Positions 23,731 through 58,104 of a stretch of DNA of 64,000 nt are shown here, one piece after another. The translations under genes and the position numbers were made by a program. Numbering within the stretch: the first letter of the stretch is position 1; every line of letters starts with the position of its first letter. Origin of the DNA: Tahibacter aquaticus (GTDB taxonomy: Bacteria > Pseudomonadota > Gammaproteobacteria > Xanthomonadales > Rhodanobacteraceae); NCBI RefSeq assembly GCF_004363655.1, contig NZ_SNZH01000006.1, forward strand, positions 310,001-374,000, given 5' to 3'. A model generated the notes under the pieces. It had not been told where the DNA came from. It saw only the letters and a program-made list of their open reading frames with translations, and did no database searches.

Positions 23731-26296
<2,566 letters not shown>

Positions 26297-26313
<17 letters not shown>

Positions 26314-40980: not shown

Positions 40981-41405
40981 AGCTCGGTGCGCGTCGCGAC
41001 GACGATTTCGAGATCAACGTGATCCCGTTGATCGACGTGATGCTTACGCTGTTGATGTTCTTCGTGCTCACGGCCACGTTCGACCAGACCGCGCGGCTCA
41101 AGGTCGCTCTGCCGCAGGCCAGCGAAGCGGCCGAGGCCGAGCCCGAGACCGGCCTGACCATCCAGGTCGACAGCGACGGGCGCTATTTCATCGACAACAA
41201 CGAAATTCTCAATCCCAGCGTGGATACGCTCAAAGACGTGCTGAACCAGATCGCCGGCGATGACCGCTCGCGTCCGGTGATGATCCGCGCCGATGCGCAG
41301 ACACCGCACCAGGCCGTGGTGACGGCGATGGACGCGCTGGGCCAGGTCGGCTTCACACGCCTTTCCATTGCCACGACGCCGTCGAAGGAAGCGCCGAAAA
41401 AGTGA
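40977..41405 (+). CDS. exbD: ExbD-type energy-transducing protein (TolR/ExbD family)
   Basis: A 142-residue partner of ExbB. The single membrane helix carries the conserved proton-binding Asp in INVIPLIDVMLTLLMFFVLTATF, followed by a periplasmic domain (TIQVDSDGRYFIDNNEI). It overlaps exbB by four bases and msbA by four bases, so the whole group is translationally coupled. The TonB receptor for PQQ-like cargo at 44156-46279 would need an ExbBD/TonB complex, but no tonB gene is in the window. Confidence 0.9.
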   Translation: MKLGARRDDDFEINVIPLIDVMLTLLMFFVLTATFDQTARLKVALPQASEAAEAEPETGLTIQVDSDGRYFIDNNEILNPSVDTLKDVLNQIAGDDRSRPVMIRADAQTPHQAVVTAMDALGQVGFTRLSIATTPSKEAPKK

Positions 41406-43159: not shown

Positions 43160-44136
43160 TGCCGGCGCGGCGCGAACGCATCTGGTACCAGGGCCAGGCC
43201 GTGCCCTGGTCCTGGCGTGTGCTGGCGCGGCTGTACGGCGCCGTCACTGCGCTGCGGCGCGCGGCATACCGGCGCGGCTGGCTGCGCTCGTTCGCCGTGG
43301 ACAAACCCGTCGTCGTGGTCGGCAATATCAGCGTCGGCGGCACCGGCAAGACACCGCTGACCATTGCCCTGGTGCGCGCCCTGGACGCGCGCGGCCTGCG
43401 CGCCGGCGTGGTCAGCCGCGGCTACGGCGGCACGGCACGCGGGCCGCTGCTGCTCGATGCACAGTCGACGGCCGGGCAGGTCGGCGACGAGCCCTTGCTG
43501 ATCCAGCGCCTCAGCGGTGCGCCCGTCGTGGTCGGGCGTGATCGCGTCGCTGCGGCGCAGATGCTGCTGCAATCGGCCGACATCGACGTGATCCTGGCCG
43601 ACGACGGTCTGCAGCATTATCGCCTGCGCCGCAAAGTGGAAATCTGCGTCATCGACGGTGCACGCCGCTTCGGCAACCGGCGGCTGCTGCCGGCCGGCCC
43701 CCTGCGCGAGCCGCTGCAGCGCCTGGACAGCGTCGATTTCCGCGTCTGCAACGGCGGCATGGCCCATGCCGATGAAGTACAGCTGCGCCTGCGCGACAGC
43801 GGCGCCCGCCGCCTGCTCGATGTGGCCGAGCCGGTGGCGCTGGAGCACTTCGCCCATCGCCGCGTGCACGCGGTTGCCGGCATCGGCAATCCGGCGCGTT
43901 TCTTCGACAGCCTGCGCGCCTGCCGCATCGAGGTGATCGAGCATGCCTTCGCCGACCACCATCTGTTCCAGCCGCAGGATCTCGCCTTCGGCGACGACCT
44001 GCCGCTGCTGATGACCGAGAAAGACGCGATCAAATGCCGCGACTTCGCCCAGCCGCACTGGTGGCAGGTGGCGGTTGAGGCGCAATTGCCGGCGGCGTTT
44101 CTCGATACCCTGGCCGCGCGCATTCGCGCGCCCTGA
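43159..44136 (+). CDS. lpxK: Tetraacyldisaccharide 4'-kinase LpxK
   Basis: Phosphorylates the 4' position of the lipid A disaccharide precursor at the inner membrane. The 325-residue length is normal. The P-loop is GGTGKTP (~60-66) with the family contexts NISVGGTGKT, VVSRGYGG, DEPLLIQRLSGAPVVVGRDR, ADDGLQHYRL and LMTEKDAIKCRDF. Overlaps msbA by one base. Convergent with the TonB receptor gene, with only 19 bp between the stops. Confidence 0.95.
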   Translation: MPARRERIWYQGQAVPWSWRVLARLYGAVTALRRAAYRRGWLRSFAVDKPVVVVGNISVGGTGKTPLTIALVRALDARGLRAGVVSRGYGGTARGPLLLDAQSTAGQVGDEPLLIQRLSGAPVVVGRDRVAAAQMLLQSADIDVILADDGLQHYRLRRKVEICVIDGARRFGNRRLLPAGPLREPLQRLDSVDFRVCNGGMAHADEVQLRLRDSGARRLLDVAEPVALEHFAHRRVHAVAGIGNPARFFDSLRACRIEVIEHAFADHHLFQPQDLAFGDDLPLLMTEKDAIKCRDFAQPHWWQVAVEAQLPAAFLDTLAARIRAP

Positions 44137-44155: not shown

Positions 44156-46279
44156 TCAGTCGTCGTTCCAGTCCCAGCGCAGACCGAGCAGCCAGGTGCG
44201 ATCCGGCCCGGGCTCGAAATAGCGCGCATTGCCTTCGTTGACGATGACCGAGCCGATATGGCGCTGGTCCAGCGCGTTGTTCAGGCGCGCAAACGCATGC
44301 AGGCGGCTTTGCCCCAGGCGCCAGTCGCGGCTGGCTTCGAGATTCAGCAGGGCATGGCCGGGCGCGCTTTCGCTGCCCAGGTCGTTGACCGTGACTGGCC
44401 CCAGCGCCAGCACCTGCGCCGCCGCGGCATAGGCACCACCGCGCCACTGCATGCGGCCGGCAAACTGGTCGCGGGCGATGCCGGGAATGCGCGTGCCGGC
44501 AGGCACTACGGCTGCTGGCGTTGTGCAGCCGGCGCTGGTGCAGATGGCGAAACCGTCGACGAATGTCGCCTGTAACCGCGTATAGGCCAGATCGAGCTGC
44601 CAGGCGCTGGCCAGCGGCAGCGTCGCCGCCATCTCCAGGCCTTCGCGCCGGCTGCGGCCGGCATTGCGGAAGCTGCTGCGGCCGCCGACATTGCGCGCCA
44701 CAGCCAGTTCGTCGTCGCTGTCGGCGCGGAACAGCGCGGCTTCCAGCGTAGCGCCGCCGCAGCTGCGCCACTTTGCGCCAATTTCCACAGTGCGGCTGCG
44801 TGACGGCTGCAGGTCCAGCGCCAGCCCGGCGCCTCCGTCGGCGCGGTAGCTCAGCTCGTTGAAGGTCGGTGTCTCGAAGCCGCGGCCGGCCGAGGCGTAG
44901 ACCCGCCAGTTTTCCGCCGGCGCGAACAGCAGGCCGGCGACCGGCGTCGTCTGTGCATAGTCCACCTTTCCACTATCGTCGGGATTGGACGCAGTGACAT
45001 AAGCATCGTCCGAGTCGAAACGCACGCGGCTGTGGCGCAGGCCGGCCAGCAGCGACCAGCGCGGCGCGAACTGCCACCAGGCCTGCAGGTACTCGTCGCT
45101 ATTGCGCGTGTCGTTGATTTCGTCGCGACGCAATCTGCCGCGTACGCCCAGCGTGCTGCCGATGAAGTTCTCGTAGCCGCGGCGCTGCTGTTCCTGCCGG
45201 TCGGCACTGAACCCGGCACTCAGCTCGAACGGCCGCCTGGCCAGTTCGCCCTGCCAGGACCAGCGCAGGTCCGCGCCGCCGTAGTCGCCCTGCAGATCGA
45301 CAACGCCGCCGGCGCTAAGCGGATTGGCCTGCGCGCTGGCCGGCACGGCGAGAAACTGTTCGACCGCGCGACGGCCCGCATAGGCCATCGCGCGCAGGCT
45401 GTGGCCCTGGCCCAGTGGCTGCGTATAGACAAGGCCGAGCTGGTTCTGCAGCGCCGATTTGCGCGTGTTGTACTGCGTCGCCACGGCAGTGGCCCGGCGT
45501 GGATCGGCCAGCGCTTCGGCGCGCGACAGACCCAGCGGATCCTGCGCATCGGGCGCATCGAAGCGGTTCGCCACCAAATCCAGCCGGCCTTGCTCGCCCA
45601 CGCCCAGGCCGAGCTTGAGATTGAACGACTGGCGCCGCGATTCGCTGTGCTCGCGATAGCCGTCGCTGTCGGCGACCGATGCGGCGACGTGATAGCCGAC
45701 GCGCGCATTGCCACCGCGCAGTCCTGCGCCGATCACGTTGTTGCCGTAACTGCCGTTGCTGAACTGTACCCGCCCCTGCGTCGGCGCCGTGCCGTCGGCG
45801 CTGAAGATCTGCACCACGCCGCCGGAGGAATTGCCGTACAGCGCCGAGAACGGCCCGCGCATCACTTCGATACGCTCGCCGCCGAACAGGCTGAAATGCG
45901 AAATCTGGCCCTGGCCGTCGGGCATGGTCGCGGGAATGCCGTCGGCATACAGGCGCAGCCCGCGCACGCCGAAGGTCGCGCGGGCACCGAAGCCGCGTAT
46001 CGACAATTGCGTGTCCTGGGCATTGTTCTGCCGGTCGCGGGCGAGCAGGCCGGGGATGCCGGCGAACACCTCGGCGGCATTCGCGTTGCTGCGTTCGGGG
46101 CCGCTGTCCAGGTCGATCACGCTGATCGAGGCGGGCGTGTCGAAACTGCTCACACCTTCGAGCCGCGTCGAGTACACCTCGACACGTTCCAGCACATCGG
46201 CCTCGTCGTCGGCCTGCGCCTGCAGCGCGGCCAGACCGCCGAGCAGGCACAGCGACGGCCAGCTGCGGCGAGCGCGCAT
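44156..46279 (-). CDS. TonB-dependent receptor of the PqqU/YncD type (predicted PQQ importer)
   Basis: A 707-residue outer-membrane barrel with N-terminal plug. From memory, it matches E. coli YncD/PqqU, the high-affinity PQQ receptor, in several blocks: QLSIRGFGAR, YADGIPATMPDGQGQ, VMRGPFSALYGNSSGGV, QYNTRKS, GYENFIGS, GRGFETPTFNELSYR, RIPGIAR and GSVIVNEGNARYFEPGP. Signal peptide MRARRSWPSLCLLGGLAALQAQA. It is the last gene of the alcohol oxidation operon and shares one base with the azurin stop, so import of the cofactor would be co-induced with the PQQ enzyme. Confidence 0.85.
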   Translation of the reverse strand: MRARRSWPSLCLLGGLAALQAQADDEADVLERVEVYSTRLEGVSSFDTPASISVIDLDSGPERSNANAAEVFAGIPGLLARDRQNNAQDTQLSIRGFGARATFGVRGLRLYADGIPATMPDGQGQISHFSLFGGERIEVMRGPFSALYGNSSGGVVQIFSADGTAPTQGRVQFSNGSYGNNVIGAGLRGGNARVGYHVAASVADSDGYREHSESRRQSFNLKLGLGVGEQGRLDLVANRFDAPDAQDPLGLSRAEALADPRRATAVATQYNTRKSALQNQLGLVYTQPLGQGHSLRAMAYAGRRAVEQFLAVPASAQANPLSAGGVVDLQGDYGGADLRWSWQGELARRPFELSAGFSADRQEQQRRGYENFIGSTLGVRGRLRRDEINDTRNSDEYLQAWWQFAPRWSLLAGLRHSRVRFDSDDAYVTASNPDDSGKVDYAQTTPVAGLLFAPAENWRVYASAGRGFETPTFNELSYRADGGAGLALDLQPSRSRTVEIGAKWRSCGGATLEAALFRADSDDELAVARNVGGRSSFRNAGRSRREGLEMAATLPLASAWQLDLAYTRLQATFVDGFAICTSAGCTTPAAVVPAGTRIPGIARDQFAGRMQWRGGAYAAAAQVLALGPVTVNDLGSESAPGHALLNLEASRDWRLGQSRLHAFARLNNALDQRHIGSVIVNEGNARYFEPGPDRTWLLGLRWDWNDD

Positions 46280-46728
46280 CAGTTCACCACCAGCTTGCCT
46301 TTCATCATCGACCAGTGCCCGGGAAACGAGCAGAAGAAGGTGTAATCGCCGCCTTTCTTCAGTTTCGCAGTGGAGAACGTGACCGACGCGACTTCACCGC
46401 CGCCGATCACCGGCGTATGCGCAATCACGCGCGCATCGCCCTTGGGCAGATAGCTGTCGGCCAGTTCGGCCGTGGCCGCGGCAGCCGTCAGGGCGTCGAG
46501 GTTCGCGCTTTCCGCCAGCACCCAGTTATGCCCCATGATTTCCGCGGCCAGCGTGCCGCTGTGCTTCAGCGTGAGCTTGACCTGCGTGCAGCCGGCGGGA
46601 ACAACCAGTTCGGCCACGTTGAAAGCCATCGCATCGTTGCCTTCGATGGCCAGCGCACAGGGCGGCGCGGCGTGTGTGGTGGCAGTAGCCAGCAGAGCGC
46701 CGGCAACGACAATGCAACGGAACAGCAT
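46279..46728 (-). CDS. azu: Azurin (type 1 blue copper protein)
   Basis: Periplasmic electron carrier, 149 aa with signal peptide (cleavage near residue 20, THA-AP). Copper ligands by family alignment are Gly66-His67 in IMGHNWVL, Cys133 and His138 in FFCSFPGHW, and Met142. The Cys24-Cys47 pair matches the azurin disulfide. It is encoded right after the PQQ alcohol dehydrogenase. Azurin is a known electron acceptor for some PQQ dehydrogenases (Pseudomonas putida HK5 ADH-IIB), and this enzyme has no fused cytochrome, so azurin is the likely acceptor. Confidence 0.93.
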   Translation of the reverse strand: MLFRCIVVAGALLATATTHAAPPCALAIEGNDAMAFNVAELVVPAGCTQVKLTLKHSGTLAAEIMGHNWVLAESANLDALTAAAATAELADSYLPKGDARVIAHTPVIGGGEVASVTFSTAKLKKGGDYTFFCSFPGHWSMMKGKLVVN

Positions 46729-46784
46729 GGAATTTCCTCGCTTCGCGGCGCGCCGCGCGTTCAAAAGGTGGGGCGAAAGTCAGC

Positions 46785-46819
46785 ACGCTCCGCGTGTACC
46801 TGACGTACACGCGGAGCGT
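46785..46819. repeat. 15-bp perfect inverted repeat between PQQ dehydrogenase and azurin genes
   Basis: Arms ACGCTCCGCGTGTAC and GTACACGCGGAGCGT with a 5-base loop, 17 bp after the dehydrogenase stop in the operon's longest gap (107 bp). There is no following U-run, so it is better explained as an mRNA-stabilising or attenuating stem than as a full terminator. Confidence 0.75.
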
Positions 46820-46835
46820 ATCGAAGCAACGACAA

Positions 46836-48563
46836 TCAGTCGCCGAGGGCGAACACCCAGACCGAGCCGCCTTCGGGTACGGCCTTTTCCCAGCCGGCCA
46901 GGTCATGCATCTTGCCCTGGATCCACTGCGCGTCTACACCCCAGCCTGACACCACGGCGATGTACTGCTTGCCGTCGATGGAGAAGCTGCTCGGCGGCGA
47001 GATGATTCCCGACGGCGTGGGGAATTCCCACAGCAGCTTGCCGCTCTTGGCGTCGTAGGCGCGGAACATCTTGTCGTTGGTGCCGCCGGCAAACAGCACG
47101 CCGCCGGCCGTGGTCAGGATGGAGCCCCAGTTCCACGAATGCGCATACGTGTCGCGCCAGACTTCCTTGCCACTGTTGATGTCCCAGGCCTGGATGCCGC
47201 CGATGTAGGGGAAGTCTTTCTTGACTGACAGATCCAGCCGGTTGATGTCCACGCCGGCTGACCACTGGCCCGGTATGCGCTGCTGGATCATGCCGGTCAG
47301 GGTGAGGCAGTGGTTGTCGTTGAACGGGATATACAGCATGCCCGTATTCGGGTTGTACGCCTCGTACGGCCAGTCCTTGCCGCCCCACAGGCTGGGACAG
47401 TAGGTGCGCGTCTTGCCGGTCGCCGGCTTGCCGTCTTCGTTGTAAGTCGGCCGGCCGGTCTTGGGATCGATGCTCTTGAAGACCGTGTTGGTGACGTAGC
47501 CTTCGGATTTCTGGTAACTGATCTTGCCCTTGGCATCGCGGTCCAGCCAGTACAGGCGGCCGTTGCGCTGCGCGCTGATCAGGCCCGTCACCTTCTTGCC
47601 GTTGCGATCGAAATCGACCAGCGTCGGCGCGTTCATGCCGGCCCAGTCCCAGGAATCGTTCCAGTGGTACTGGTAATGGCTGAGGATGTTGCCGTTGGCC
47701 GGATCCAGCGACAGCACCGAGGCGAGATAGAGGTTGTCACCGGGACGCTGGTCGCCCAGCCAGGGCGCACCGTTGCCGACGCCCCAGTAGATCACGTCGT
47801 TCTTCACGTCGTAGTTGCCCGGCATCCACATCGTGCCGCCGCCGTTCTTCCAGGCGTCTTTCCATTCGCCGGTCTGCGGCCAGGTTTCCGAACCTGGCTC
47901 GCCCGGCGCCGGCACGCTGTAGCGCGTCCAGGCCAGCTTGCCGGTCTCGGCGTCGAAGGCCTTGAGGAAGCCGCGCACGCCGAACTCGCCGCCCGACGGG
48001 CCTATCATCACCTTGCCCTTCACCACCAGCGGCGCCGAGGTGATGTAGGCGCTCTCGGTCTCCCAGTCGCAGACCTGCGCTTCCCAGACCAGCTTGCCGG
48101 TCTTCGCATCCAGCGCGCTGAGCATGCAGTCGACGCTGCCGACATAGACCTTGTCGTTCCACAAGGCCACGCCGCGATTCGTGCGGTGCAATGCGCCGAT
48201 GCCTTCGGGTACCTCGCGCGTGAATTTCCACAGCACCTTGCCGGTTTTCGCGTGGTAGGCGATGACGTGGTTGTGCGGCGTCGCGACGAACATGTAGTCG
48301 CCGTTGACGATGGCCGGTGCCTCGTGGCCCGAGTTGATGCCCGTCGCGGCAGACCAGACCGGACGAAGCCTGGCGACATTGGCAGTCGTGATCTGGTTCA
48401 GCGCGGAATAGCTCCAGCCGGCGTAGTTGCCCTTGGTCAGCAGCCAGTTCTCTGGTTCCGGATTGGCCAGGCGTGCGTCGGTGACGGGCTTGTAGTCGGC
48501 CGCGGCGAGTGTGCCCGAGGCGAGTGTCGCGGCCAGTGCGGCGGCGGTCAGCGTGCGTTTCAT
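46836..48563 (-). CDS. PQQ-dependent alcohol dehydrogenase (methanol/ethanol family, Ca-type site)
   Basis: A 575-residue periplasmic quinoprotein with an eight-bladed propeller. Signal peptide MKRTLTAAALAATLASGTLA. Metal/PQQ residues by alignment: Glu193 (SGGEFGVRG), Asn264 (GVGNGAPW) and catalytic Asp306 (WDWAG). Ala308, two residues on, is where lanthanide (XoxF-type) enzymes have Asp, so calcium is expected. The vicinal Cys pair that normally precedes the Asn-Arg-Gly motif is absent (ALHRTNRG). No cytochrome c domain. The substrate is not determinable; the neighbouring lactaldehyde dehydrogenase suggests a diol. Confidence 0.92.
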   Translation of the reverse strand: MKRTLTAAALAATLASGTLAAADYKPVTDARLANPEPENWLLTKGNYAGWSYSALNQITTANVARLRPVWSAATGINSGHEAPAIVNGDYMFVATPHNHVIAYHAKTGKVLWKFTREVPEGIGALHRTNRGVALWNDKVYVGSVDCMLSALDAKTGKLVWEAQVCDWETESAYITSAPLVVKGKVMIGPSGGEFGVRGFLKAFDAETGKLAWTRYSVPAPGEPGSETWPQTGEWKDAWKNGGGTMWMPGNYDVKNDVIYWGVGNGAPWLGDQRPGDNLYLASVLSLDPANGNILSHYQYHWNDSWDWAGMNAPTLVDFDRNGKKVTGLISAQRNGRLYWLDRDAKGKISYQKSEGYVTNTVFKSIDPKTGRPTYNEDGKPATGKTRTYCPSLWGGKDWPYEAYNPNTGMLYIPFNDNHCLTLTGMIQQRIPGQWSAGVDINRLDLSVKKDFPYIGGIQAWDINSGKEVWRDTYAHSWNWGSILTTAGGVLFAGGTNDKMFRAYDAKSGKLLWEFPTPSGIISPPSSFSIDGKQYIAVVSGWGVDAQWIQGKMHDLAGWEKAVPEGGSVWVFALGD

Positions 48564-48619
48564 GCGGTGTTCCTCCCGGTGTTGCAATAGTTTTTTGTGG
48601 ATTTATGGGTGTGTATCGT

Positions 48620-49225
48620 CTACGTCGGTGGGCCCAGCGGGCCGTCGAATTTCGCCGCCACGACGAGCGCGCCGTCCTGGATCGCCAGCGGCAGCATGGC
48701 GAGCCGGCGCGTGGCCGGTCCCTGGGTCACGGCGCCACGGTCGGCCGCATCGAATACCGAACCGTGGCAGTTGCAGACGATCTGGCTCTGGCTCGGATGC
48801 AAGGTGGTGATGGGGCAGCCGTAGTGCGTGCACACGGCCGAGAACGCGACGATGCCGTCCGCGGCGTTTTTCGCGCTGGCGGGCTTGAGTGCCTCGGGCT
48901 TGAGCCGCACCACCGTGAGCAGGCCGACGCGGGATACCAGCACCTTGCCGCTGGCTGGATCGAGCGGATAGGCCAGCGTCGGCACCGCGCCGACGACGAG
49001 GTCGGCGGGCTTGATTTCCTGGTCCTTGCGCTCGCCCACCATGAAGGCGAGGCGGTCGCCGGGCTCGGGCTTGGTGCCGCGCGCTGCGGGTGCACCGACG
49101 CTCTCGCCGAGTGCGGCCAGCGGCGCCAGCGCGGCCAGGGCGAGGGCGCCGCCGAGCATGCTGCGGCGGGCCGGGTCGTGCGCGGTACAGGCGCAGCGGC
49201 AGGGAGAATGGCTGGATTTCGTCAT
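48620..49225 (-). CDS. Tat-exported Rieske [2Fe-2S] protein
   Basis: A 201-residue periplasmic or membrane-anchored iron-sulfur protein. Twin-arginine-like signal (DPARRSMLGGALALAALAPL, residues 17-36). The Rieske cluster motifs are CTHYGC (Cys132, His134, Cys137) and CNCHGS (Cys151, Cys153, His154), with the usual 13-residue spacing. It is not next to cytochrome b/c1 genes; instead it lies between the aldehyde and alcohol dehydrogenase genes, so it may be a dedicated redox carrier for this pathway. The Cys-rich N-terminus (CRCAC) before the Tat motif is odd. Confidence 0.85.
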   Translation of the reverse strand: MTKSSHSPCRCACTAHDPARRSMLGGALALAALAPLAALGESVGAPAARGTKPEPGDRLAFMVGERKDQEIKPADLVVGAVPTLAYPLDPASGKVLVSRVGLLTVVRLKPEALKPASAKNAADGIVAFSAVCTHYGCPITTLHPSQSQIVCNCHGSVFDAADRGAVTQGPATRRLAMLPLAIQDGALVVAAKFDGPLGPPT

Positions 49226-49247
49226 GTCTGGCTTCCTACTGCCTCGC

Positions 49248-50684
49248 TTACGGCGTCTGCAGGTAGACGACGTGGGTTTCGGTGAATTCGTACAGGCCGT
49301 GCTTGCCGTCGGCACCGCCGATGCCGGATTTGCGCCGGCCCGCATGGAAACCCTGCATCGCCTCGAAATGCTCGCGATTGATGTAGGTTTCGCCGAAGCG
49401 CAGTTCGCGCACGGCGCGCATGGCCGAATTGATATTGCTGGTGAAGATCGACGAGGTCAGGCCGAACTCGGAATCGTTGGACAGGGCGATCGCCTCGTCC
49501 AGGCTGTCGACCACCTGCACCGGCAGCACCGGACCGAAGATTTCCTTGCGCATGATGTCCATGTCGGCGCGGGCATCGACGATCAGGGTCGGTTCGTAGT
49601 GAAAGCCCTGTGCCAGCTGTGCGCGCTGGCCGCCGGTGACGATGGTGGCGCCGTCGCGCTTGGCCTGTTCCACCATGGCCGCCACCTTGTCCAGGCCGGC
49701 CTGGTTGATCAGCGGTCCCATCTGCAGGTCGGCATCGACCGACGGATCGCCGTAGCGCGTGGCCTGCATATGCGCGGCGAGCTTCTGCACCAGTGCATCG
49801 TGTACGCCGCGTTCCACATAGACGCGTTCGGCACAATTGCACACCTGGCCGGTATTGATCACGCGCGAGTCGTAGATGGCCTTGGCGGCGAGGTCGAGAT
49901 CGGCGTCGGCCAGTACGATAGCCGGTGCCTTGCCGCCGAGTTCCAGGTTCACCCGGGTCAGATGGCGGCCGGCCGCCTGCATGATGCGGCTGCCGGTGGC
50001 GACGCTGCCGGTGAAGGTGATCAGGTCGACATCGGGGTTGGATACCAGCGCGTCGCCGGCGGTGGCGCCGCGACCGCCGACCAGGTTGAATACGCCGGCG
50101 GGCAGGTCGGTCTCGCTGACCAGCTGGGCGAATTCGAACGCGTTGATCGGCGTCTCCTCGCTGGGCTTGATCACGATGGTATTGCCGGTGACCAGGGCCG
50201 GCGCGAGCTTTCGCGCAATCAGGAAAAAGGGAAAATTCCATGGCAGGATGCCGGCGACCACGCCGACCGGCTTGCGCAACAGGAAAATTGTTTCATTGGC
50301 GCGGTCGCTGCTCAGCACCTCGCCTTCGAGGCGCCGTGCCCATTCGGCCATGTAGTCGATGTAGTCGGCGGTGAAGTCGACTTCCACTTGGGCCAGCCCG
50401 GGCACCTTGCCCTGTTCGCGCACGATGATGCCGGCCAGCTCGGTGCGCCGCTCACGTACCTTGGCGGCAATCTGGCGCAGGTGATTCGCCCGCTGGATCG
50501 GCGCGAGTTTCTCCCAGGCCGGCTGGGCGCGCCGCGCCGCGGCCACGGCGCTGGCGATGGTGTCGGCGCTGCTGTCGGGAATACGCGCCAGCAACGCGCC
50601 GTTGGCCGGGTTGGTCACGTCGATCGTGGCGCCGTCGGACGGTACGAACGCACCGTCGACATAGTTTTTATACAAAGTTGTCAT
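49248..50684 (-). CDS. aldA: Lactaldehyde/glycolaldehyde dehydrogenase (AldA type)
   Basis: A 478-residue NAD-dependent aldehyde dehydrogenase. It closely follows E. coli AldA in memory-checked blocks: EVDFTADYIDYMAEWARR, GILPWNFPFFLIARK, SRVINTGQVCNCAERVYV, FGETYINREHFEAMQGFHAG and KSGIGGADGKHGLYEF. Key residues are Asn150, Glu248 and the nucleophile Cys282 (GQVC). AldA oxidises L-lactaldehyde to lactate and glycolaldehyde to glycolate. Start ATG 50684 is preceded by the intergenic gap to the channel gene; a much longer in-frame reading overlaps that gene and is rejected. Confidence 0.92.
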   Translation of the reverse strand: MTTLYKNYVDGAFVPSDGATIDVTNPANGALLARIPDSSADTIASAVAAARRAQPAWEKLAPIQRANHLRQIAAKVRERRTELAGIIVREQGKVPGLAQVEVDFTADYIDYMAEWARRLEGEVLSSDRANETIFLLRKPVGVVAGILPWNFPFFLIARKLAPALVTGNTIVIKPSEETPINAFEFAQLVSETDLPAGVFNLVGGRGATAGDALVSNPDVDLITFTGSVATGSRIMQAAGRHLTRVNLELGGKAPAIVLADADLDLAAKAIYDSRVINTGQVCNCAERVYVERGVHDALVQKLAAHMQATRYGDPSVDADLQMGPLINQAGLDKVAAMVEQAKRDGATIVTGGQRAQLAQGFHYEPTLIVDARADMDIMRKEIFGPVLPVQVVDSLDEAIALSNDSEFGLTSSIFTSNINSAMRAVRELRFGETYINREHFEAMQGFHAGRRKSGIGGADGKHGLYEFTETHVVYLQTP

Positions 50685-50740
50685 TGTGCTTTCCTTATCG
50701 GCGGGCAGGGGCGGGCGCCGCGTGCGTATGCGTGCCGCGG

Positions 50741-51616
50741 TTACCAGACATAGGCGTATTTCAGGTTGAAGCTGTCGTTGACCGCGTGGTTTTCGCCGTC
50801 GAGCGAGGTCGAATAGCGCAGGGTGATCGACTGGTTGTCGAAGGTGTGGATCATCAGTCCGGCGCCGCCGTCCAGCGCCCAGGATGCGGGGCGGCCGTCC
50901 TTGCTGCCGCTGCGCTCGTGATCCAGCGCGAGGAAAGGTTCCAGTCGGCGGTTGGCGCGGTAGGCGAAGCGGTGGTTCTGGTGCCAGCTCATGGCCGGCT
51001 TGAAGCCGTCGTCGCGCGTGCCCTGCCAGACGAAGCCGGCGTCGCCGGTCCAGCCGAATTTGTCGCCGATGCGCCAGTCCCAGAACAGGCTGGACAGGTT
51101 TTTCCAGTTGGTATCGCTGATGCGGTCGGTGCCGACTGGCACCTGCAGGAAAGACTGGAAACCCAGGGTCAGGTTGGGCCGCGCCTTGTACCAGATGGCG
51201 AAGCCGGTCAGCGGATCGCCCAGGCCGCTGATATGCCGGTCGCCCTCGGGCGCCTGGCGGTTGCGGATCGCCACTTCCGGCACGATCACTTCCCAGGCCA
51301 CGCCGATCTTGCGGTTCGATTCCGGCGTCCAGAAGCGCACGTATTTCGACAGGCCGCTGATCAGCTGGCTGCCGCTGCCGTCGACCTTGTCGCCGTTGGC
51401 GTCGAAGACGCGGTCGTTGTCCTGGATGGTTGCATATTGAACAAATACATTGAACGGCTTGAAGTCGACCGGCAGCTCGTATTCGCGCGGGCCGATCACG
51501 TCGAAGGTGGTCTGCGCGATGCTGCTGCCGGCGTAGGCGAGCAAGGCGGCAGCGATGGCGTGTGCAGGCAAAAAGCGGCGCCGCGACGCTGGCGGCGTCG
51601 TCGAAGAAATGGCCAT
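50741..51616 (-). CDS. Predicted outer-membrane channel/transporter (MetA-pathway phenol-degradation type)
   Basis: A 291-residue beta-barrel-like protein. Signal peptide MAISSTTPPASRRRFLPAHA followed by a hydrophobic stretch to SSIAQ. Alternating aromatic strands (FAIWYKARPNLTLGFQSFLQ, SSLFWDWRIGDKFGWTG, FAYRANRRLEPFLALDHE) end in LKYAYVW, a terminal Trp typical of outer-membrane barrels. The family is found in aromatic, alkane and alcohol degradation clusters, presumably for substrate uptake. First gene of the sigma-54-type operon, with a GGAGGA ribosome-binding site. Confidence 0.72.
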   Translation of the reverse strand: MAISSTTPPASRRRFLPAHAIAAALLAYAGSSIAQTTFDVIGPREYELPVDFKPFNVFVQYATIQDNDRVFDANGDKVDGSGSQLISGLSKYVRFWTPESNRKIGVAWEVIVPEVAIRNRQAPEGDRHISGLGDPLTGFAIWYKARPNLTLGFQSFLQVPVGTDRISDTNWKNLSSLFWDWRIGDKFGWTGDAGFVWQGTRDDGFKPAMSWHQNHRFAYRANRRLEPFLALDHERSGSKDGRPASWALDGGAGLMIHTFDNQSITLRYSTSLDGENHAVNDSFNLKYAYVW

Positions 51617-51735
51617 GTAATCCTCCCGTATGAATGCTGCGGAGCGCTGCGGGCTTTGTGCGCCCCTGTCGCGCATCCGTCCTGTTCGCGAGGCTTCGGC
51701 GCCGGTCTGTGCCGGTGTCCGCGCCTGACCAGTCA

Positions 51736-51753
51736 TCGCAAGTCACGTGCCAG
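51736..51753 (-). promoter_or_regulatory. Sigma-54 (-24/-12) promoter
   Basis: On the minus strand the sequence reads CTGGCACGTGACTTGCGA, matching TGGCACG-N4-TTGC at all fixed positions, with GG and GC elements at the canonical spacing. It points toward the channel gene, whose ATG is 120 bp downstream. The adjacent gene encodes a sigma-54 activator. Confidence 0.85.
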
Positions 51754-51835
51754 CGCGCCTTGCTGCAAGGCAGCAGACCAGGTGATTGATCCTTATGAAG
51801 GCCTTGTGCGACCGCACATTAATCACCGCGCTGCT

Positions 51836-51886
51836 GCGACAGCGCGACGCGCACAGGTGTCGCTGCTGCTGCGACAGGTGTCGCAG
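51836..51886. promoter_or_regulatory. Predicted enhancer (upstream activating) sites for the sigma-54 activator
   Basis: A perfect dyad CTGCGACA-GG-TGTCGCAG (51869-51886) and a second pair of GCGACA and TGTCGC half-sites (51836-51841 and 51858-51863). The decamer CAGGTGTCGC recurs with a 21-bp offset, two helical turns. The sites lie 85-135 bp upstream of the -24/-12 promoter, a normal enhancer distance. Confidence 0.55.
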
Positions 51887-52105
51887 GCGAAAACCAAGTG
51901 CTGCGGTGCTTTGCTGCGGATTTCTGCGTTATTCGCAGGCAGCCGGGTGGTGCATTGGAAGCGCAGGTGGCTCCGTTGCAGATTGGGTAAAGAAATAATT
52001 TAAAAAATATAGTTTTGTGTATATAGCGGAGCGATGCCCGGCCTGTATCAGGCTGGAAAATCGCGCCGCGGGGTGCTACGGCTTGCTTTCGTCGCAAGAC
52101 CTTGC

Positions 52106-52268
52106 GGTGCAATTCGCTACGCTTATCGCACCCTACGAAAGCCCAGGCTGGCTAATCGCGTTCTGTGGGGCGCGATGAGCAACGCGAATTGCGCCGCGCG
52201 GTCGCGGCGTTGCCGTGCCGCAAGTCTTGCGGTGCAAGCGGTGCAATTCGCTACGCTCATCGCACGCT
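52106..52268. repeat. Three palindromic intergenic repeat copies
   Basis: Copies of a ~30-bp unit at 52106-52136 (minus), 52165-52195 (plus) and 52240-52268 (minus). The plus-sense form is approximately GTAGGGCGCGATGAGCGACG then CGAATTGCGCC. Alternating orientation is typical of REP/BIME-like elements. Confidence 0.7.
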
Positions 52269-52296
52269 GCCAAGACTGTCTGCTGCGCGCGCGCCG

Positions 52297-54294
52297 TCAG
52301 CTCAACTGCGTCGGCGACAGGATGCCGTGGCGTTTCATGCGCCGGTAGATGGTGGCGCGGCACAGGCCGAGTTCGCGCGCGGCATCGCTGATGTTCCAGC
52401 GGTGGCGGCGCAAGGTGGCCAGCAGCAGCGCGCGTTCGTCCAGCGCGCAGATGGCTGCGGCGGGTTCGTGGCCGCTGTGGCTCAGGGCGAAGCCGGTCGG
52501 TTCGGGCGGCGGTTCTGCCGCATCGAGGATTTCCTGCGGCAGATGCCAGACATCGATCGCTTCGCCGTCGGCGATCGACAGGGCAAAGCGCAGCGCATTG
52601 CGCAGCTCGCGCACATTGCCCGGCCAGTCGTAGCGCAGTAGCAGTTCGCGTGCATCGTCGGCCAGGGCCGCGTTCGCGTTCATGGCGCTGGCCTCGGCCT
52701 GCAGGATGGTTTCGATGAGGAAATCCTTGTCGCTGCGCTCGCGCAGCGGCGGCAGCGCCAGCGTCGCGCCGCAGAGACGGTAGTACAGATCCTCGCGGAA
52801 GGTGCCGGCAACGATCTGCCGGCGCAGGTCGCGGTGCGAGGCGGCGACCACGTGCAAGTCCACAGCAACGGGTTTTTCCGCACCCAGCGGCAGTACTTCG
52901 CGCTCCGCCAGTACGCGCAGCAGGCGCGTCTGCAGCAGCAGCGGCATGTCGCCGATTTCGTCGAGAAACAAGGTACCGCCGTCGGAACGCTGGATCAGTC
53001 CCTTCATCCCCTTGCTGCGCGCACCGGTGAAAGTGCCGGCGGTATAGCCGAACAATTCGCTTTCGATCAGCGATTCGGGAATCGCCGCGCAATTCACCGC
53101 GACGAAGGCGGCCGCCGCGCGCCGGCTGGCGTCGTGCAGCGCCCTCGCCAGCACTTCCTTGCCGGTGCCGGTATCGCCCTGGATCAGGATGGAAATAGGC
53201 TTGTCGACCAGGCGTGCCGCGCGTTCCAGCAGCGTGCTCATGCGCGCATCGCCGCCACCGAGCCGGGCCAGCACGTCGTGCTTGCGCGGATTGGCCTGCG
53301 CCTCGCTGTCGTTGCTGCGCTGCCAGCGCGGCGCGGTCTTCGGCGCGATCATGCTGGCGTGATAGCCCTGGCCGTCCCAGGTGGTGACGATGCTGCTGGC
53401 GTCGCCCGTGCCCTTGGTCAGGCGCCAGATCGCGTCGATGCGCGAGCCGAAAACGCCAGACAGGTGGCTGCCGACCACGCTGGCACGCGCTTCGCGCGTC
53501 AGCCCGGCCGAATCGAGCAGGCGCAGGTAGCGCCGCGCATCGGTATTCGCGCCGACGATGCGGCCGTCGCGGTCCACGGCCAGCATCAGTTCGCCGCAGA
53601 CATCGACCAATGGCCCGGCCGTACCCAGGCGCAGAATCCATTGGTCGCGGAACTGGTGCATGAAATTGGCGTCTTCGATCATGCGCCCGTACAGCACGGT
53701 GAGATGCCGCGCCAGATGCTGGCTTTCCCGCGCATCCGGCGAGGACAGCGCGGAAATATCCAGTGCGCCGAGAAAGCCGCCATGCGGGTCGAACAGTGGC
53801 GTGCAGGTGCAGCTCAGGCCGACGTTGCCGATGTAGAAATGGTCTTCGCGATGGCAGGTCAGGGTATTGCGTTCGGCGATGCAGGTGCCGATGCCGTTGG
53901 TACCTGCATGCACTTCGTTCCAGTTCGCGCCGAGCAGCAGGCCGGCGCGCTTGAGCGAGGCATCCCAGGTGTCGTTGCCGATGTAGTCGATGGTGACGCC
54001 TTCGGCATCGGTCAGCATTAATACGTAGCCCAGCGCGGACACATGCTTGTACAGCTGCTCCATGCCGGCGCGGGCGACGTGCAGGTATTCCTCGTTGAGC
54101 TGGCGGCATTCGCGCAGCCGCGTCGAGGTTTCGATGCGCACGTCCGGCAGCAAGGTGGGGTCGAGTTCGTGTTCGCGCACGCAGCGGCGCCAGGAGCGGT
54201 GGATCAGCGCGGTATTCGCATCCAGCGCCGGCAGCTGCGGCGAATGCACCACGCGCAGGATGGTCTGTATATGTTGCTCGACGACGATGCTCAT
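52297..54294 (-). CDS. Sigma-54-dependent transcriptional activator, AcoR type
   Basis: A 665-residue enhancer-binding protein: N-terminal GAF-type sensor (~70-210), a PAS-like middle, AAA+ ATPase with Walker A GDTGTGKE (373-380), Walker B LFLDEIGD (442-449), and a Fis-type HTH (~635-656, NISDAARELGLCRATIYRRM). The sigma-54 contact loop reads GTFTGA (420-425) instead of GAFTGA. AcoR-type proteins sense small metabolites such as acetaldehyde/acetoin. It probably activates the promoter at 51736. Its ATG is 61 bp after the lutB stop, so it may also be expressed with the lut genes. Confidence 0.92.
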   Translation of the reverse strand: MSIVVEQHIQTILRVVHSPQLPALDANTALIHRSWRRCVREHELDPTLLPDVRIETSTRLRECRQLNEEYLHVARAGMEQLYKHVSALGYVLMLTDAEGVTIDYIGNDTWDASLKRAGLLLGANWNEVHAGTNGIGTCIAERNTLTCHREDHFYIGNVGLSCTCTPLFDPHGGFLGALDISALSSPDARESQHLARHLTVLYGRMIEDANFMHQFRDQWILRLGTAGPLVDVCGELMLAVDRDGRIVGANTDARRYLRLLDSAGLTREARASVVGSHLSGVFGSRIDAIWRLTKGTGDASSIVTTWDGQGYHASMIAPKTAPRWQRSNDSEAQANPRKHDVLARLGGGDARMSTLLERAARLVDKPISILIQGDTGTGKEVLARALHDASRRAAAAFVAVNCAAIPESLIESELFGYTAGTFTGARSKGMKGLIQRSDGGTLFLDEIGDMPLLLQTRLLRVLAEREVLPLGAEKPVAVDLHVVAASHRDLRRQIVAGTFREDLYYRLCGATLALPPLRERSDKDFLIETILQAEASAMNANAALADDARELLLRYDWPGNVRELRNALRFALSIADGEAIDVWHLPQEILDAAEPPPEPTGFALSHSGHEPAAAICALDERALLLATLRRHRWNISDAARELGLCRATIYRRMKRHGILSPTQLS

Positions 54295-54355
54295 GCGCCC
54301 CCCTTCCGGTTGCGCGCTCCGGCGCTTCCTTCCGTTTGAAAATTTGCCGGATCGT

Positions 54356-55837
54356 TCAATCCGGCGAGTGTCTGTCGCGCAGCGCCTTGCGGGAATGCAG
54401 CGGCGTACGTGTCGCCAGCTGTTCGCGTAGCGAGCGTCGTGCCGGGCGCAGCGGCGCGCGGGTACGGGTCCAGCCGCTGCGGGCGGCAACCGCCAGTACG
54501 CGCAGGCGCGGTGCGATCCAGGCAAACAGCGCATACAGCGCGCTGTGCGCATAGAGCAGGCGCCAGGCCTTCCAGGCAACAACCTCGACGATGCTACGCG
54601 CCGCGCCCTGGCCCTTCAACGCCTGCCGTTGCTGCGCTGCGGGATGCGAGTGCCTGCCGGCTTCGCGCAGACGCATCAGCAGATCGGGAATCGGTATGCC
54701 GACCGGACATACCTCGCCACAGGCACCGCACAGGCTGGATGCAGTCGGCAGATCGCGCGTGCTGTCCAGGTTCATCAGGTGCGGCGAGATGATGGCGCCT
54801 ATCGGCCCGGGATACGTGGTGCCGTAGGAAAGCCCGCCGATGCGCGCATATACGGGGCAGTGGTTCATGCACGCGCCGCAACGTATGCACTGCAAGGTGG
54901 CGCGGAAATGCTCCTCGCGATAGGCCTGGCTGCGGCCGTTGTCGAGCAGGATCAGGTGCACTTCGCGCGGCCCGTCCTTTTCGTCCGCGCGGCGCGGCCC
55001 GCTGATCACATTGAGGTAGGTCGTCACGGCCTGGCCCGTCGCCGAGCGCGTCAGCAAAGTGAACAATGGAGCAATGTGATCAAGCGTGGCGACTACTTTC
55101 TCGATGCCGGTGATGGCGATATGCACATCGGGTACCGTCGTCGACAGCCGGCCGTTGCCTTCGTTCTCCACCAGCACCAGGCTGCCGGTTTCGGCGACGA
55201 GGAAATTCACGCCGGAAACGCCGATCTTCGCCGTGCGGAACTCATTGCGCAGCGCGCGCCGGCCGATGGCGATGAGTTCTTCCACGTCTTCGGTATAGCC
55301 GGCGCCGGGAATATGCGTGGCGAAGATCTTGGCCACGTCTTCCTTGGTCTTGTGGATGGCCGGCATGATGATGTGGCTGGGCCGGTCGCCGTCGAGCTGC
55401 AATATGTATTCGCCCATGTCGGTTTCGATGCAGGCGATGCCGTGGGCGGCCATCTCGTGGTTCAGGCCGATTTCCTCACTGACCATGGACTTGCCCTTGA
55501 CCATCGTCGGGGCGTCGTGGCGGCGCGCCAGGTCGAGGAAGATCGCATTCGCCGCGGCAGCATCCTCGGCCCAGTGCAGGTGGATGCCGTTTTCGTGCAG
55601 GCGCGTTTCCAGCTGCATCAGCAGCTGCGGCAGGTTGGCCAGGGCGTGCTGGCGAATCTGCTTGCCCAGGTCGCGCAGTTCGGCGAAGGCGTCCGCATCG
55701 GGAAACTGCGCTGCGCGCTTGTCGGTCAGGAAATCCATCGCGCCGCGGAAATTGCGCCGCAATACCGGATCGGCCAGTACCAGGCGCGAATTGTCCTTGA
55801 ACGCGCGCGGGTCGGCGGTAGGCCGCTCGGCACTCAT
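54356..55837 (-). CDS. lutB: L-lactate oxidation iron-sulfur protein LutB
   Basis: A 493-residue subunit of the LutABC complex, which oxidises L-lactate to pyruvate in the cytoplasm. An N-terminal LUD domain (residues ~70-290, with TMVKGKSMVSEEIGLN and GVNFLVAETGSLVLVENEGN) is followed by two ferredoxin-type clusters: CIRCGACMNHCPVY (Cys317-327) and CGACGEVCPVGIP (Cys370-377). The C-terminal ~80 residues are Arg/Ala-rich. Start ATG 55837 overlaps the lutC stop by four bases. Confidence 0.93.
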   Translation of the reverse strand: MSAERPTADPRAFKDNSRLVLADPVLRRNFRGAMDFLTDKRAAQFPDADAFAELRDLGKQIRQHALANLPQLLMQLETRLHENGIHLHWAEDAAAANAIFLDLARRHDAPTMVKGKSMVSEEIGLNHEMAAHGIACIETDMGEYILQLDGDRPSHIIMPAIHKTKEDVAKIFATHIPGAGYTEDVEELIAIGRRALRNEFRTAKIGVSGVNFLVAETGSLVLVENEGNGRLSTTVPDVHIAITGIEKVVATLDHIAPLFTLLTRSATGQAVTTYLNVISGPRRADEKDGPREVHLILLDNGRSQAYREEHFRATLQCIRCGACMNHCPVYARIGGLSYGTTYPGPIGAIISPHLMNLDSTRDLPTASSLCGACGEVCPVGIPIPDLLMRLREAGRHSHPAAQQRQALKGQGAARSIVEVVAWKAWRLLYAHSALYALFAWIAPRLRVLAVAARSGWTRTRAPLRPARRSLREQLATRTPLHSRKALRDRHSPD

Positions 55838-56517
55838 GCGCCTGCCTCCCCGTGCAGCAGCAGGATGACCAGCTGTTTCGGCCCGTGCGCGCCGTAGACC
55901 AGCAGGCGCTGGATATCCGCCGTCTTGGACGGGCCGGTCACGAGCAGGGCATTGGTCGGCAGCTGTCCGGCCCAGCGCTGCGCTTGCATCGCCGCGTACA
56001 GGGTTTCGTGCAGTGTGTGCGCGTGCAGCACGGCGATATGGATGGGCGGCACCAGCGACAGAGTGCGCGGTTCGTCCGCATCGGGCCAGACGATCAGGCT
56101 GCCAGTGTCGGCGATGCCGCCCCGCGTCGTGCTGATGCCCGCGTCGATCTGGTCGAACAGCACCGGCTTGAAGGTTTCCATGGTTTCGTCGTACCAGTGC
56201 AGCGATGTCGCCGGTGCCAGCGCGGCGATTCCCGCGGCAAGCGGTGTAGTGCGCCCGGCCAGCAGATGGCGGATCCCCTTTGCGGCAACGATGCGTGCAA
56301 GCGCCTCGGCCCAGTTGTGCGCGGTGCAATCGACCACTTCGGCGCGCCAACTGCGCGCGCGTTCGGCAAAGCGTGTAGCGATGCTGCTGCGCTCTGGCGT
56401 GGCGAGCCTGCCGTAATAGGCGGCCACGCCGGGCGCTGTGCCGGTGTCTGCCGGCGCGGCTTCGCGCAAGCGCGCCAGGATCGCGCTGCGCGCACGGGCA
56501 TTGTCGGCGGGGTTCAT
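55834..56517 (-). CDS. lutC: Lactate utilisation protein LutC
   Basis: A 227-residue LUD-domain subunit of LutABC. The core shows TTRGGIADTGSLIVWPDADEPRTLSLVPP (in parts) and the closing PSKTADIQRLLVYGAHGPKQL, the typical LutC/LutB-shared end. The gene order lutA-lutC-lutB differs from the lutA-lutB-lutC order of Bacillus subtilis. Overlaps of four bases on both sides show tight coupling of all three subunits. Confidence 0.92.
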   Translation of the reverse strand: MNPADNARARSAILARLREAAPADTGTAPGVAAYYGRLATPERSSIATRFAERARSWRAEVVDCTAHNWAEALARIVAAKGIRHLLAGRTTPLAAGIAALAPATSLHWYDETMETFKPVLFDQIDAGISTTRGGIADTGSLIVWPDADEPRTLSLVPPIHIAVLHAHTLHETLYAAMQAQRWAGQLPTNALLVTGPSKTADIQRLLVYGAHGPKQLVILLLHGEAGA

Positions 56518-57296
56518 GCGGCGGGCTCGCTGTCGAGTCGCAGGCGGTTGCGCAGGAAGCTCGCGATATGCTGGCCGCGCAGCGGCTCGCCGCGTTTTTC
56601 CAGCGTGGTGTTGAGGTTCAGCAGGCAGCCGCAGTCGGCGCTGACATAGCGGCTGCAGCCAGTGGCCAGCAGCGCATCGACCTTGTCGCCGGCCATCGCC
56701 GCAGAAATTTCCGCGTGCTTGATGCTGAAGGTGCCGCCGAAGCCGCAGCATTCGGGTTCGTGTTCCTGCGTGCGCAGTTCGACGCCGGGCAGGGTATTCA
56801 ACAGCTGCCGCCCGCTGCGCAGCGCATCCGTCTCGCGGCGCGCACTGCAGGAAGTGTGCAGGCATAGCGCGATCGCTTCGTTCTGCGCGGCAGTGAGATC
56901 CAGCCCCAGCGTGGCCACGACGAAATCGGTGAACTCGACCACGCGCTCAGCCACCGCGGCAGCGCGCGCGGCAAGGGCCGCGTCGTCGGCAAACAGGCGC
57001 GGCCAGTGGTGGCGGATCATGCCGGCGCAGGAACCTGACGGCACGACGATGGGCCAGGGCTGGGCAAACAGGTCGAGCTGCGTGCGCGCGACGGCGCGCG
57101 CATCGGCAGGGAAGCCGCTGGTATAAGCCGGCTGGCCGCAGCAGGTCTGCGCAGCGGGAAAGCTCACGCGCACACCGGCGTGTTCCAGCACGGCAATTGC
57201 GTCCATGCCGGCTTCGGGCATGAACAGGTCGACCACGCAGGTGGCGAAGAAATACACGTCGGCAGGACGGTCGTGGCGGGGAATAGGCGGGTTCAT
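56514..57296 (-). CDS. lutA: L-lactate oxidation protein LutA (Cys-rich CCG-domain subunit)
   Basis: A 260-residue member of the heterodisulfide-reductase-like family. Two CCG domains: FPAAQTCCGQPAYTSGF and EPECCGFGGTFSIKH, each with the conserved Cys cluster-binding set, plus LHTSCSARRE. First gene of the lut operon, divergent from a GntR/FadR regulator gene with an 88-bp shared control region. Works with LutB and LutC on L-lactate, here perhaps the product of AldA. Confidence 0.93.
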   Translation of the reverse strand: MNPPIPRHDRPADVYFFATCVVDLFMPEAGMDAIAVLEHAGVRVSFPAAQTCCGQPAYTSGFPADARAVARTQLDLFAQPWPIVVPSGSCAGMIRHHWPRLFADDAALAARAAAVAERVVEFTDFVVATLGLDLTAAQNEAIALCLHTSCSARRETDALRSGRQLLNTLPGVELRTQEHEPECCGFGGTFSIKHAEISAAMAGDKVDALLATGCSRYVSADCGCLLNLNTTLEKRGEPLRGQHIASFLRNRLRLDSEPAA

Positions 57297-57347
57297 GGGC
57301 TATCCGTTGGCTGGGCGCAGTCTCGCGCCGGCTCGCCCAGGCGGTAT

Positions 57348-57362
57348 ATTGGTCAGACCAAT
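57348..57362. promoter_or_regulatory. Operator for the FadR-type lactate regulator
   Basis: ATTGGT-CAG-ACCAAT, a perfect dyad matching the TTGGT-N3-ACCAA consensus bound by LldR/PdhR-type FadR regulators. It lies midway between the divergent lutA and regulator genes, so binding could repress both. Confidence 0.8.
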
Positions 57363-57384
57363 TTTCTCCCGTGGCCAGTCCGGC

Positions 57385-58104
57385 ATGAGCAGCCAGGTCG
57401 ACGAAGTCAGCACGCAACTGGAACAGGCCATCGCGGCAGGCCGCTATACGCCGGCACGCCGGCTGCCGGCGGAACGCGCGCTGGCCGTGCAGTTCTGCGT
57501 ATCCCGCGCCACCGTGCGCGAGGCGATCGGCAGCCTGGTGGCGCGTGGCCTGCTGCAGCGCCGGCCGGGCGACGGCACCTATGTATTGCCCGAGTCGGAC
57601 CGGCGCATGGCGGAAGTCTGGCTGGACATGGTGCAGCGCCACCCGGCCTTGCAGGGCGACCTGATCGAATTCCGCGCCATGCTGGAAAGCCGCGCCGCCG
57701 AACTGGCTGCGCTGCGCCGCGATGCCGACGACTGCCTGCGCCTGCAGGCCGCGCATGCCGCTGTCGATGCGGCTTATGCGGGCAGCGACCGCGACGAACA
57801 GATCCGCAGCGACGTGGCCTTTCATCGCGCGATTGCCGCGGCCACGCACAACCCGGTGTTTTCCTACCTGACCTCGTCCTTGCTCAAGGTGATGCACGAA
57901 CACGTGCAGCTGAGCCTGGCCGGGCTGCAGCCGCAATCGAGTACGGCACAGCAGTTGCGTGTGCAGCATGACGCGCTGCTCGCCGCCATCGTCGATGGCG
58001 ATGCGGTACGCGCACGTGCCGCCGCAGGCCAGCATATGGATTTCGTCGCGGTGCGCCTGAATGCGCTGGCACAGCGGCCACGCCGGGCGGCGGCGCGCCG
58101 GTGA
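57385..58104 (+). CDS. GntR/FadR-family transcriptional regulator (LldR/LutR type)
   Basis: A 239-residue regulator with a winged helix (residues ~5-70: ARRLPAERALAVQFCVSRATVREAIG, in parts; GTYVLPESD at the wing) and a C-terminal FCD ligand-binding domain with metal-binding His/Asp candidates (DVAFHRAIAAATHNPVF and VQHDALLAAI). LldR/LutR homologues respond to lactate. Start ATG 57385 gives the normal length; longer frames overlap lutA's start region. It is divergent from lutACB and flanks the operator at 57348. Confidence 0.88.
   Translation: MSSQVDEVSTQLEQAIAAGRYTPARRLPAERALAVQFCVSRATVREAIGSLVARGLLQRRPGDGTYVLPESDRRMAEVWLDMVQRHPALQGDLIEFRAMLESRAAELAALRRDADDCLRLQAAHAAVDAAYAGSDRDEQIRSDVAFHRAIAAATHNPVFSYLTSSLLKVMHEHVQLSLAGLQPQSSTAQQLRVQHDALLAAIVDGDAVRARAAAGQHMDFVAVRLNALAQRPRRAAARR

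Follow-up and report, generated by a model that had tools for sequence, protein, structure and literature searches.

The oxidation of small alcohols and of L-lactate is known from several systems that each resemble one part of the locus described here. The ped/exa systems of Pseudomonas (PedE, PedH and ExaA, with cytochrome c550) rely on periplasmic type I alcohol dehydrogenases (ADHs) that use pyrroloquinoline quinone (PQQ) to oxidise short alcohols. In Escherichia coli, FucO and AldA lead from L-1,2-propanediol via lactaldehyde to L-lactate and then to pyruvate, and the TonB-dependent receptor PqqU (also called YncD) serves the glucose dehydrogenase. In Bacillus subtilis, L-lactate is oxidised by the three-subunit LutABC complex. 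We analysed a locus of eleven genes within a stretch of 64,000 nucleotides of Tahibacter aquaticus DNA (contig NZ_SNZH01000006.1, positions 310,001 to 374,000; this whole stretch is in the following called the window), in which a PQQ-dependent ADH is encoded together with a Rieske iron-sulphur protein, a PqqU-like receptor, lut genes and regulators.

The ADH of the window is, like the Pseudomonas enzymes, a type I PQQ ADH predicted to be periplasmic and to act on a short alcohol. Unlike ped/exa, the locus has genes for a Rieske protein and azurin and no cytochrome c550 gene, its ADH lacks the vicinal disulfide, and a sigma-54 activator gene and lut genes are attached. The predicted route from a diol to lactaldehyde, by AldA to L-lactate and further to pyruvate resembles that of E. 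coli, but in contrast to NAD-linked FucO the first step would be periplasmic and PQQ-linked, and lactate would be handled by LutABC. Passages of PMC12124388 describe high-affinity PQQ import by E. coli PqqU; the pqqU gene of the window differs in its position within the operon of the enzyme presumably served, an ADH. Compared with B. subtilis, the Lut complex also has three subunits, but the gene order is A-C-B and the sigma-54 activator gene follows closely on the same strand. Judging by the titles and abstracts of the open-licence literature, we found no paper on a PQQ-ADH/Rieske pair or on this cluster, in line with the original prediction that no cluster with exactly this gene set had been described, although the set does exist in other genomes. 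The nearest publications, to go by their relevant passages, are the PqqU study (PMC12124388) and a review of the ped system (PMC12997753).

The ADH and Rieske genes form the conserved core of the cluster, a point overlooked in the original prediction. We scanned a collection of species genomes with an alignment of three ADH orthologues and took the best 80 of 110 confirmed loci (numbered with L in the following); the scan was seeded by two peptides, which favours near relatives. Of the 78 loci with enough upstream DNA, 69 have the Rieske gene as the immediate upstream neighbour of the ADH gene, on the same strand, and three more have it within ~2.5 kb, namely behind a tandem ADH (L062), at a distance of 1.1 kb (L083) or downstream (L070). 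No Rieske gene was detected within ~1.5 kb on either side of 27 other PQQ-ADH-like loci from host relatives of the same order, nor around the six of these that were checked over 20 kb, with a model derived from Rieske proteins of the clade itself, which a very divergent one could escape. The difference (72/78 versus 0/27) corresponds to a Fisher p of 1e-19, calculated on rows that are related to each other. The Rieske protein of the window carries the cluster motifs CTHYGC and CNCHGS and an RRSMLGG signal. In a recount of one open reading frame (ORF) per locus, excluding L001-L003, both CxH..C and CxxH were kept in 74/74 Rieske ORFs, and a twin arginine precedes the cluster in 67 of the 68 ORFs scored. 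The pair of clade ADH and Rieske protein was also encountered in a metagenome bin titled Klebsiella pneumoniae (L096), whose contig is probably misbinned or misnamed.

The ADHs of this clade furthermore lack the pair of adjacent cysteines that forms the vicinal disulfide. Where other quinoproteins have ..CCD..NRG, the window reads GIGALHRTNRG; the loop is 3 residues shorter in the clade and contains a histidine in 78 of 80 sequences. The CC pair is missing in 80/80 clade ADHs, a count that excludes those with an aligned match of ≤400 residues (L120, L121, L122), and it is present in all six distinct PDB sequences displayed among the 29 matched. In a phylogenetic tree of 109 ADHs of 520-800 residues, 78 CC-less, Rieske-linked ADHs form one branch with a support of 100 (SH-aLRT, quick method); three further CC-less sequences (L028, L029 and the second ADH of L064) are outliers on long branches. 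The residues E193, N264, D306, R333, W246, R130 and T175, which we take from methanol and ethanol dehydrogenase to serve PQQ binding, metal binding and catalysis, are conserved in all 35 clade ADHs compared. The window ADH matches TIGR03075 with 509.5 bits (cut-off 480), and its AlphaFold2 model shows a confident propeller (pLDDT 89.8, pTM 0.90) with PedH as the best PDB match by E-value (TM 0.87).

The position diagnostic for lanthanides is an alanine in the window ADH (WDWAG), and the second Asp, two residues after the catalytic one, is lacking, which rules out a lanthanide-dependent enzyme of the XoxF/PedH type. Among the 35 clade sequences this position is A in 18 and D in 17; clade ADHs ~47-58% identical to that of the window carry the Asp (WDWDE or similar), and the Rieske-linked clade may, judging from this residue, hold both Ca- and Ln-type enzymes. 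Nine ADH sequences bear their own CXXCH motif at the C-terminus; the window ADH is not among them, and a type II quinohaemoprotein is likewise ruled out. Six genomes of the host family (L037-L042) contain another PQQ-ADH group with both the CC pair and the lanthanide Asp, located beside genes for a sigma-54 activator and an aldehyde dehydrogenase. In three of them (L038, L040, L041), a PqqU-like receptor with 48-51% identity to that of the window is encoded within the same 20 kb as the CC-type ADH.

Because the loss of the disulfide coincides with a fixed Rieske neighbour, these data suggest that this quinoprotein clade exchanged its cytochrome c acceptor for a Rieske protein. According to passages of PMC8546591 and PMC12997753, both citing Mennenga 2009, the adjacent cysteines of ExaA are essential for the transfer to cytochrome c550, and the same two sources treat the exit of electrons from PQQ and the role of this disulfide as unsettled. 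A natural clade that is free of the disulfide, tied to a Rieske protein and otherwise intact in its active site where checked makes the question directly testable. If the exchange is real, an iron-sulphur protein would join the quinoprotein acceptors named in a passage of PMC12124388, which are cytochrome c, quinone and azurin.

We next consider the lactate half of the locus. Defining a close subclade by an ADH identity of ≥74% yielded 27 loci, of which L055 and L069 represent one isolate, and left 55 more distant scanned loci. Of the 27 close loci, 14 have lut genes in the flanks retrieved (window, L035, L043-L047, L049, L051, L053, L056, L062, L063, L068). Among the unlinked close loci, L050, L054, L055, L069 and L119 are on short contigs, the genomes of L052, L060 and L061 encode LutB elsewhere, and no LutB match (E 1e-40) was obtained in those of L048, L057, L058, L059 and L116. 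Since lut is linked only among the close loci, the lactate route belongs to the close subclade. Separation of the lut and adh genes in relatives, which the original prediction had regarded as an argument against a joint pathway, was found throughout the wider clade (0/55 scanned loci linked, many of them on short contigs) and does not hold for the close subclade.

The identical set of eleven genes recurs in the same order in four Pseudoxanthomonas loci (L045, L046, L047, L068), which places the arrangement beyond chance. A different arrangement is present in Hyphomicrobium (L053, L056; genes of relatives were assigned with Pfam for L053 and by clustering for the others). Its combined cluster spans L053:2661-20284 and starts with the activator, the FadR-type regulator, an L-lactate permease and LutA-B-C, followed by an opposite-strand gene without a Pfam family, the Rieske protein and the ADH; next come a two-subunit molybdenum-type aldehyde oxidoreductase that replaces AldA and the E1, E2 and E3 components of pyruvate dehydrogenase. 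In Methyloligella (L062), the barrel, AldA, the Rieske protein and two ADHs are encoded with the activator, the FadR-type regulator, LutA-B-C, E1 and E2. Compared with the window, the ADHs of these two genera are 74-82% identical, but LutB only 43-45%. A close ADH combined with a divergent LutB and a different gene order implies that lut joined more than once or was replaced in place, and the pyruvate dehydrogenase genes alongside imply that the cluster continues to acetyl-CoA. For lactate as an intermediate, this differently arranged linkage in alphaproteobacteria is the strongest argument, and on its account we reject a mere chance neighbourhood of lut and adh. The chain from alcohol via aldehyde and L-lactate to pyruvate, as originally predicted, gains support from this recurrent and partly independent linkage. 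Between lutC and the Rieske gene, Hyphomicrobium has a conserved gene of 450 codons (L053:7340-8692, L056:7387-8760) with a sigma-54-like promoter of its own; Pfam has no family for it or for several other neighbours.

AldA of the window scores 753.6 bits with NF007497 (cut-off 500), and its closest PDB chain is E. coli aldehyde dehydrogenase A (2opx, E 1e-189). As AldA and Lut together point to lactaldehyde, 1,2-propanediol is our best inference for the substrate. According to a 2026 review (PMC13210347), the NAD-linked conversion of 1,2-propanediol into pyruvate is non-specific and "not a canonical" pathway. The cluster would, if the assignment is right, be a dedicated PQQ-linked 1,2-propanediol pathway, with a regulator and an operator open to testing.

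The receptor encoded at the end of the alcohol operon had been called a PQQ-type TonB receptor, and this call was right. It matches the E. coli YncD/PqqU structures 6v81 (E 3e-154) and 9c4o (E 4e-154), with the next match at 8e-13, far above any siderophore receptor, which rules out a siderophore or lanthanophore receptor; the best NCBIfam model, NF041535, is matched with 649.5 bits, under its equivalog cut-off of 1200. Seven of the 12 PQQ-contact residues given in PMC12124388 were compared by eye with those described there; Q84, Q121, K274, R304, R365 and R536 are identical and Y99 is replaced by F. The host genome (scored 100% complete) has no pqqC match. Only weak pqqE matches below the cut-off were obtained in it, as in all 14 controls, and the argument for PQQ auxotrophy therefore uses pqqC alone; from its absence, the host probably cannot make PQQ and scavenges it through the PqqU homologue. 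We searched 35 chosen host genomes (those of 33 scanned loci plus G000, G011 and G049, minus L043) for pqqC, PqqU and LutB. Nine lack pqqC, and the receptor (E 1e-60) is present in eight of these versus 10 of the 26 pqqC-bearing genomes (Fisher p 0.018, the genomes not being independent). All five loci whose operon includes azurin and the receptor (window, L045, L046, L047, L068) belong to genomes without pqqC. A passage of PMC12124388 reports PQQ synthesis genes in just 23% of PqqU carriers.

From these data, with odds somewhat better than even, the two operons of the locus together encode a pathway, with a Rieske acceptor and PQQ import, by which a small alcohol supports aerobic growth; (S)-1,2-propanediol is the most likely candidate. 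The alcohol would enter across the outer membrane with the aid of the PF13557 barrel, and the periplasmic Ca/PQQ ADH would oxidise the diol to L-lactaldehyde. The exported Rieske protein, not cytochrome c, would re-oxidise the reduced PQQ, and in the host genome the electrons would pass from it to azurin as a second carrier and on to oxidases. AldA would convert lactaldehyde to L-lactate and LutABC the L-lactate to pyruvate, with PQQ imported by the co-encoded PqqU and its own synthesis probably lacking. For the wider evolutionary reading, we estimate a probability of roughly 0.55: a widespread, mostly proteobacterial clade replaced cytochrome c by a dedicated Rieske protein and dropped the disulfide that serves the cytochrome, and one lineage added the pathway from 1,2-propanediol to lactate together with PQQ scavenging.

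Several observations weigh against this reading. Six of the 78 clade loci are without a Rieske gene (L082, L099, L110, L111, L112, L120). At L070 (9414-11713), a cytochrome c gene lies upstream of the clade ADH gene and the Rieske gene downstream. Neighbouring cytochrome c genes are rare beside both ADH groups, so that the lack of one is weak evidence: an export-like CXXCH ORF lies no more than 1.4 kb away, on the same strand, at 1/80 clade loci versus 3/24 loci of the CC type. Some other quinoprotein dehydrogenases also have no CC pair, and its loss need not imply a Rieske partner. The genome G174 has neither a pqqC nor a PqqU match, and 13 of the 27 close loci, as well as all 55 more distant ones (many on short contigs), have no lut beside the ADH. 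The Rieske protein could also be a later carrier instead of the direct acceptor. That it acts as such a carrier, or as an assembly or protective factor, with the PQQ electrons going to cytochrome c or straight to azurin, appears somewhat unlikely to us; azurin is co-encoded in the window and in the four Pseudoxanthomonas loci, L070 carries both the cytochrome c and the Rieske gene, and azurin is among the acceptors in the passage of PMC12124388 cited above, but 72/78 clade loci have a Rieske gene near the ADH, window-like azurin was found in only five loci, and the cytochrome-linked disulfide is gone on the same branch as the Rieske-linked ADHs.

The substrate is subject to a similar consideration: AldA and PQQ-ADHs are broad, and the first two steps are compatible with ethylene glycol or simple alcohols. 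The ADH operon might serve another alcohol (ethylene glycol, ethanol or a longer one), with lut as a neighbour by chance or through shared regulation. Glycolaldehyde is a further substrate of AldA (E. coli route, in a passage of PMC13210347); in Azoarcus, Zoogloea and Neptuniibacter, the flanks retrieved around ADH-Rieske-AldA contain no lut, and the more distant scanned loci have no lut at all beside the ADH. We nevertheless consider this unlikely in view of the linkage at 14/27 close loci and of the alphaproteobacteria, which pair the ADH with a divergent LutB in a different gene order and with pyruvate dehydrogenase alongside; moreover, ethylene glycol gives glycolate, which is expected to call for a glycolate oxidase rather than Lut, and none is present in the cluster. 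Very improbable is a degenerate quinoprotein that no longer binds PQQ and lost its disulfide by decay. The "acido-empty-quinoprotein" model TIGR04528 matches the ADH at 330 bits, under its cut-off of 650, but the seven active-site positions are invariant, the operon ends in the PqqU gene and the structural model matches PedH.

Returning to the proposed 1,2-propanediol pathway, the alcohol operon is likely under sigma-54 control, because the promoter and an upstream dyad recur in relatives and the activator gene adjoins. The -24/-12 site in front of the barrel gene (122 bp ahead of its start) is the single perfect match in 64 kb with 0.23 expected, which alone is weak evidence; counterparts precede the barrel or Rieske gene in many relatives. 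We hand-picked 19 promoters with a site ahead of the barrel or Rieske gene, dropping near-duplicates; the Dokdonella locus L048, which lacks a promoter site there, is outside this set. The dyad was found exactly or with one mismatch at 13 of the 19 (window included), 133-167 bp upstream of the promoter, and was not matched in L052 (degenerate), L062, L058, L060, L084 and L053. The activator, proposed to respond to alcohol, would turn on the alcohol operon via this dyad. The FadR-type regulator is probably a lactate-responsive repressor of the lut unit, and co-transcription of the activator with lutACB, probably under FadR, would couple both halves.

All eleven genes named in the original prediction are intact, as judged from Pfam, NCBIfam and start codons, and no unrelated gene lies between them (Table 1). 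By spacing, they form a first transcription unit lutA-C-B-activator (gaps of -4, -4 and 61 bp) and, after 680 bp, a second one, barrel-aldA-Rieske-ADH-azurin-receptor (56, 22, 56, 107 and -1 bp). LutA, LutB and LutC are all encoded together (CCG, LUD, LutB_C, TIGR00273), LutC without an NCBIfam match although Pfam LUD matches; azurin scores 171.8 bits with TIGR02695 (cut-off 105). The other seven genomes of the host genus that were searched contain no close ADH (best E 1.9e-8), which implies either gain of the cluster or its widespread loss.

Table 1 Features of the PQQ-ADH/Rieske/lut locus (positions refer to the window).
Feature	Positions	Strand	Evidence and remarks
GntR/FCD regulator, FadR-type	57385..58104	+	Pfam GntR and FCD; divergent from lutA, 88-bp gap
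LutA, CCG (cysteine-rich) subunit of the L-lactate oxidation complex	56514..57296	-	Pfam CCG; heads lutA-C-B
LutC, LUD-domain subunit	55834..56517	-	Pfam LUD; 4-bp overlaps with lutA and lutB
LutB, iron-sulphur LUD subunit	54356..55837	-	TIGR00273 above cut-off; Pfam LutB_C
Sigma-54 enhancer-binding activator (AAA+, Fis helix-turn-helix)	52297..54294	-	Pfam Sigma54_activat, HTH_8; 61 bp behind lutB
Dyad TGCGACA-NN-TGTCGCA, proposed activator site	51870..51885	-	133 bp upstream of the promoter
Sigma-54 (-24/-12) promoter TGGCACGTGACTTGC	51738..51752	-	Sole perfect TGGCAC-N5-TTGC match in the window
PF13557 outer-membrane barrel	50741..51616	-	Pfam; putative alcohol channel
AldA-type NAD aldehyde dehydrogenase (lactaldehyde/glycolaldehyde)	49248..50684	-	NF007497 above cut-off
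Rieske [2Fe-2S] protein, Tat-like signal	48620..49225	-	Pfam Rieske
PQQ-dependent type I ADH	46836..48563	-	TIGR03075 above cut-off
Azurin	46279..46728	-	TIGR02695 above cut-off; PDB azurins E 1e-38
PqqU-like TonB-dependent receptor	44156..46279	-	E. coli YncD/PqqU 6v81, 9c4o

The flanks of the locus are ordinary, with ExbB, ExbD, an MsbA-type ABC protein and LpxK encoded on one side and SelO on the other; exbB-exbD-msbA-lpxK (window 40312-44136) adjoin the PqqU gene directly and are encoded on the other strand. Elsewhere in the window, an ORF of 512 codons that has no Pfam family (28443-29981) lies in the region of the strongest AT skew, and a serine/threonine protein kinase with TPR repeats is encoded at 23731-26316.

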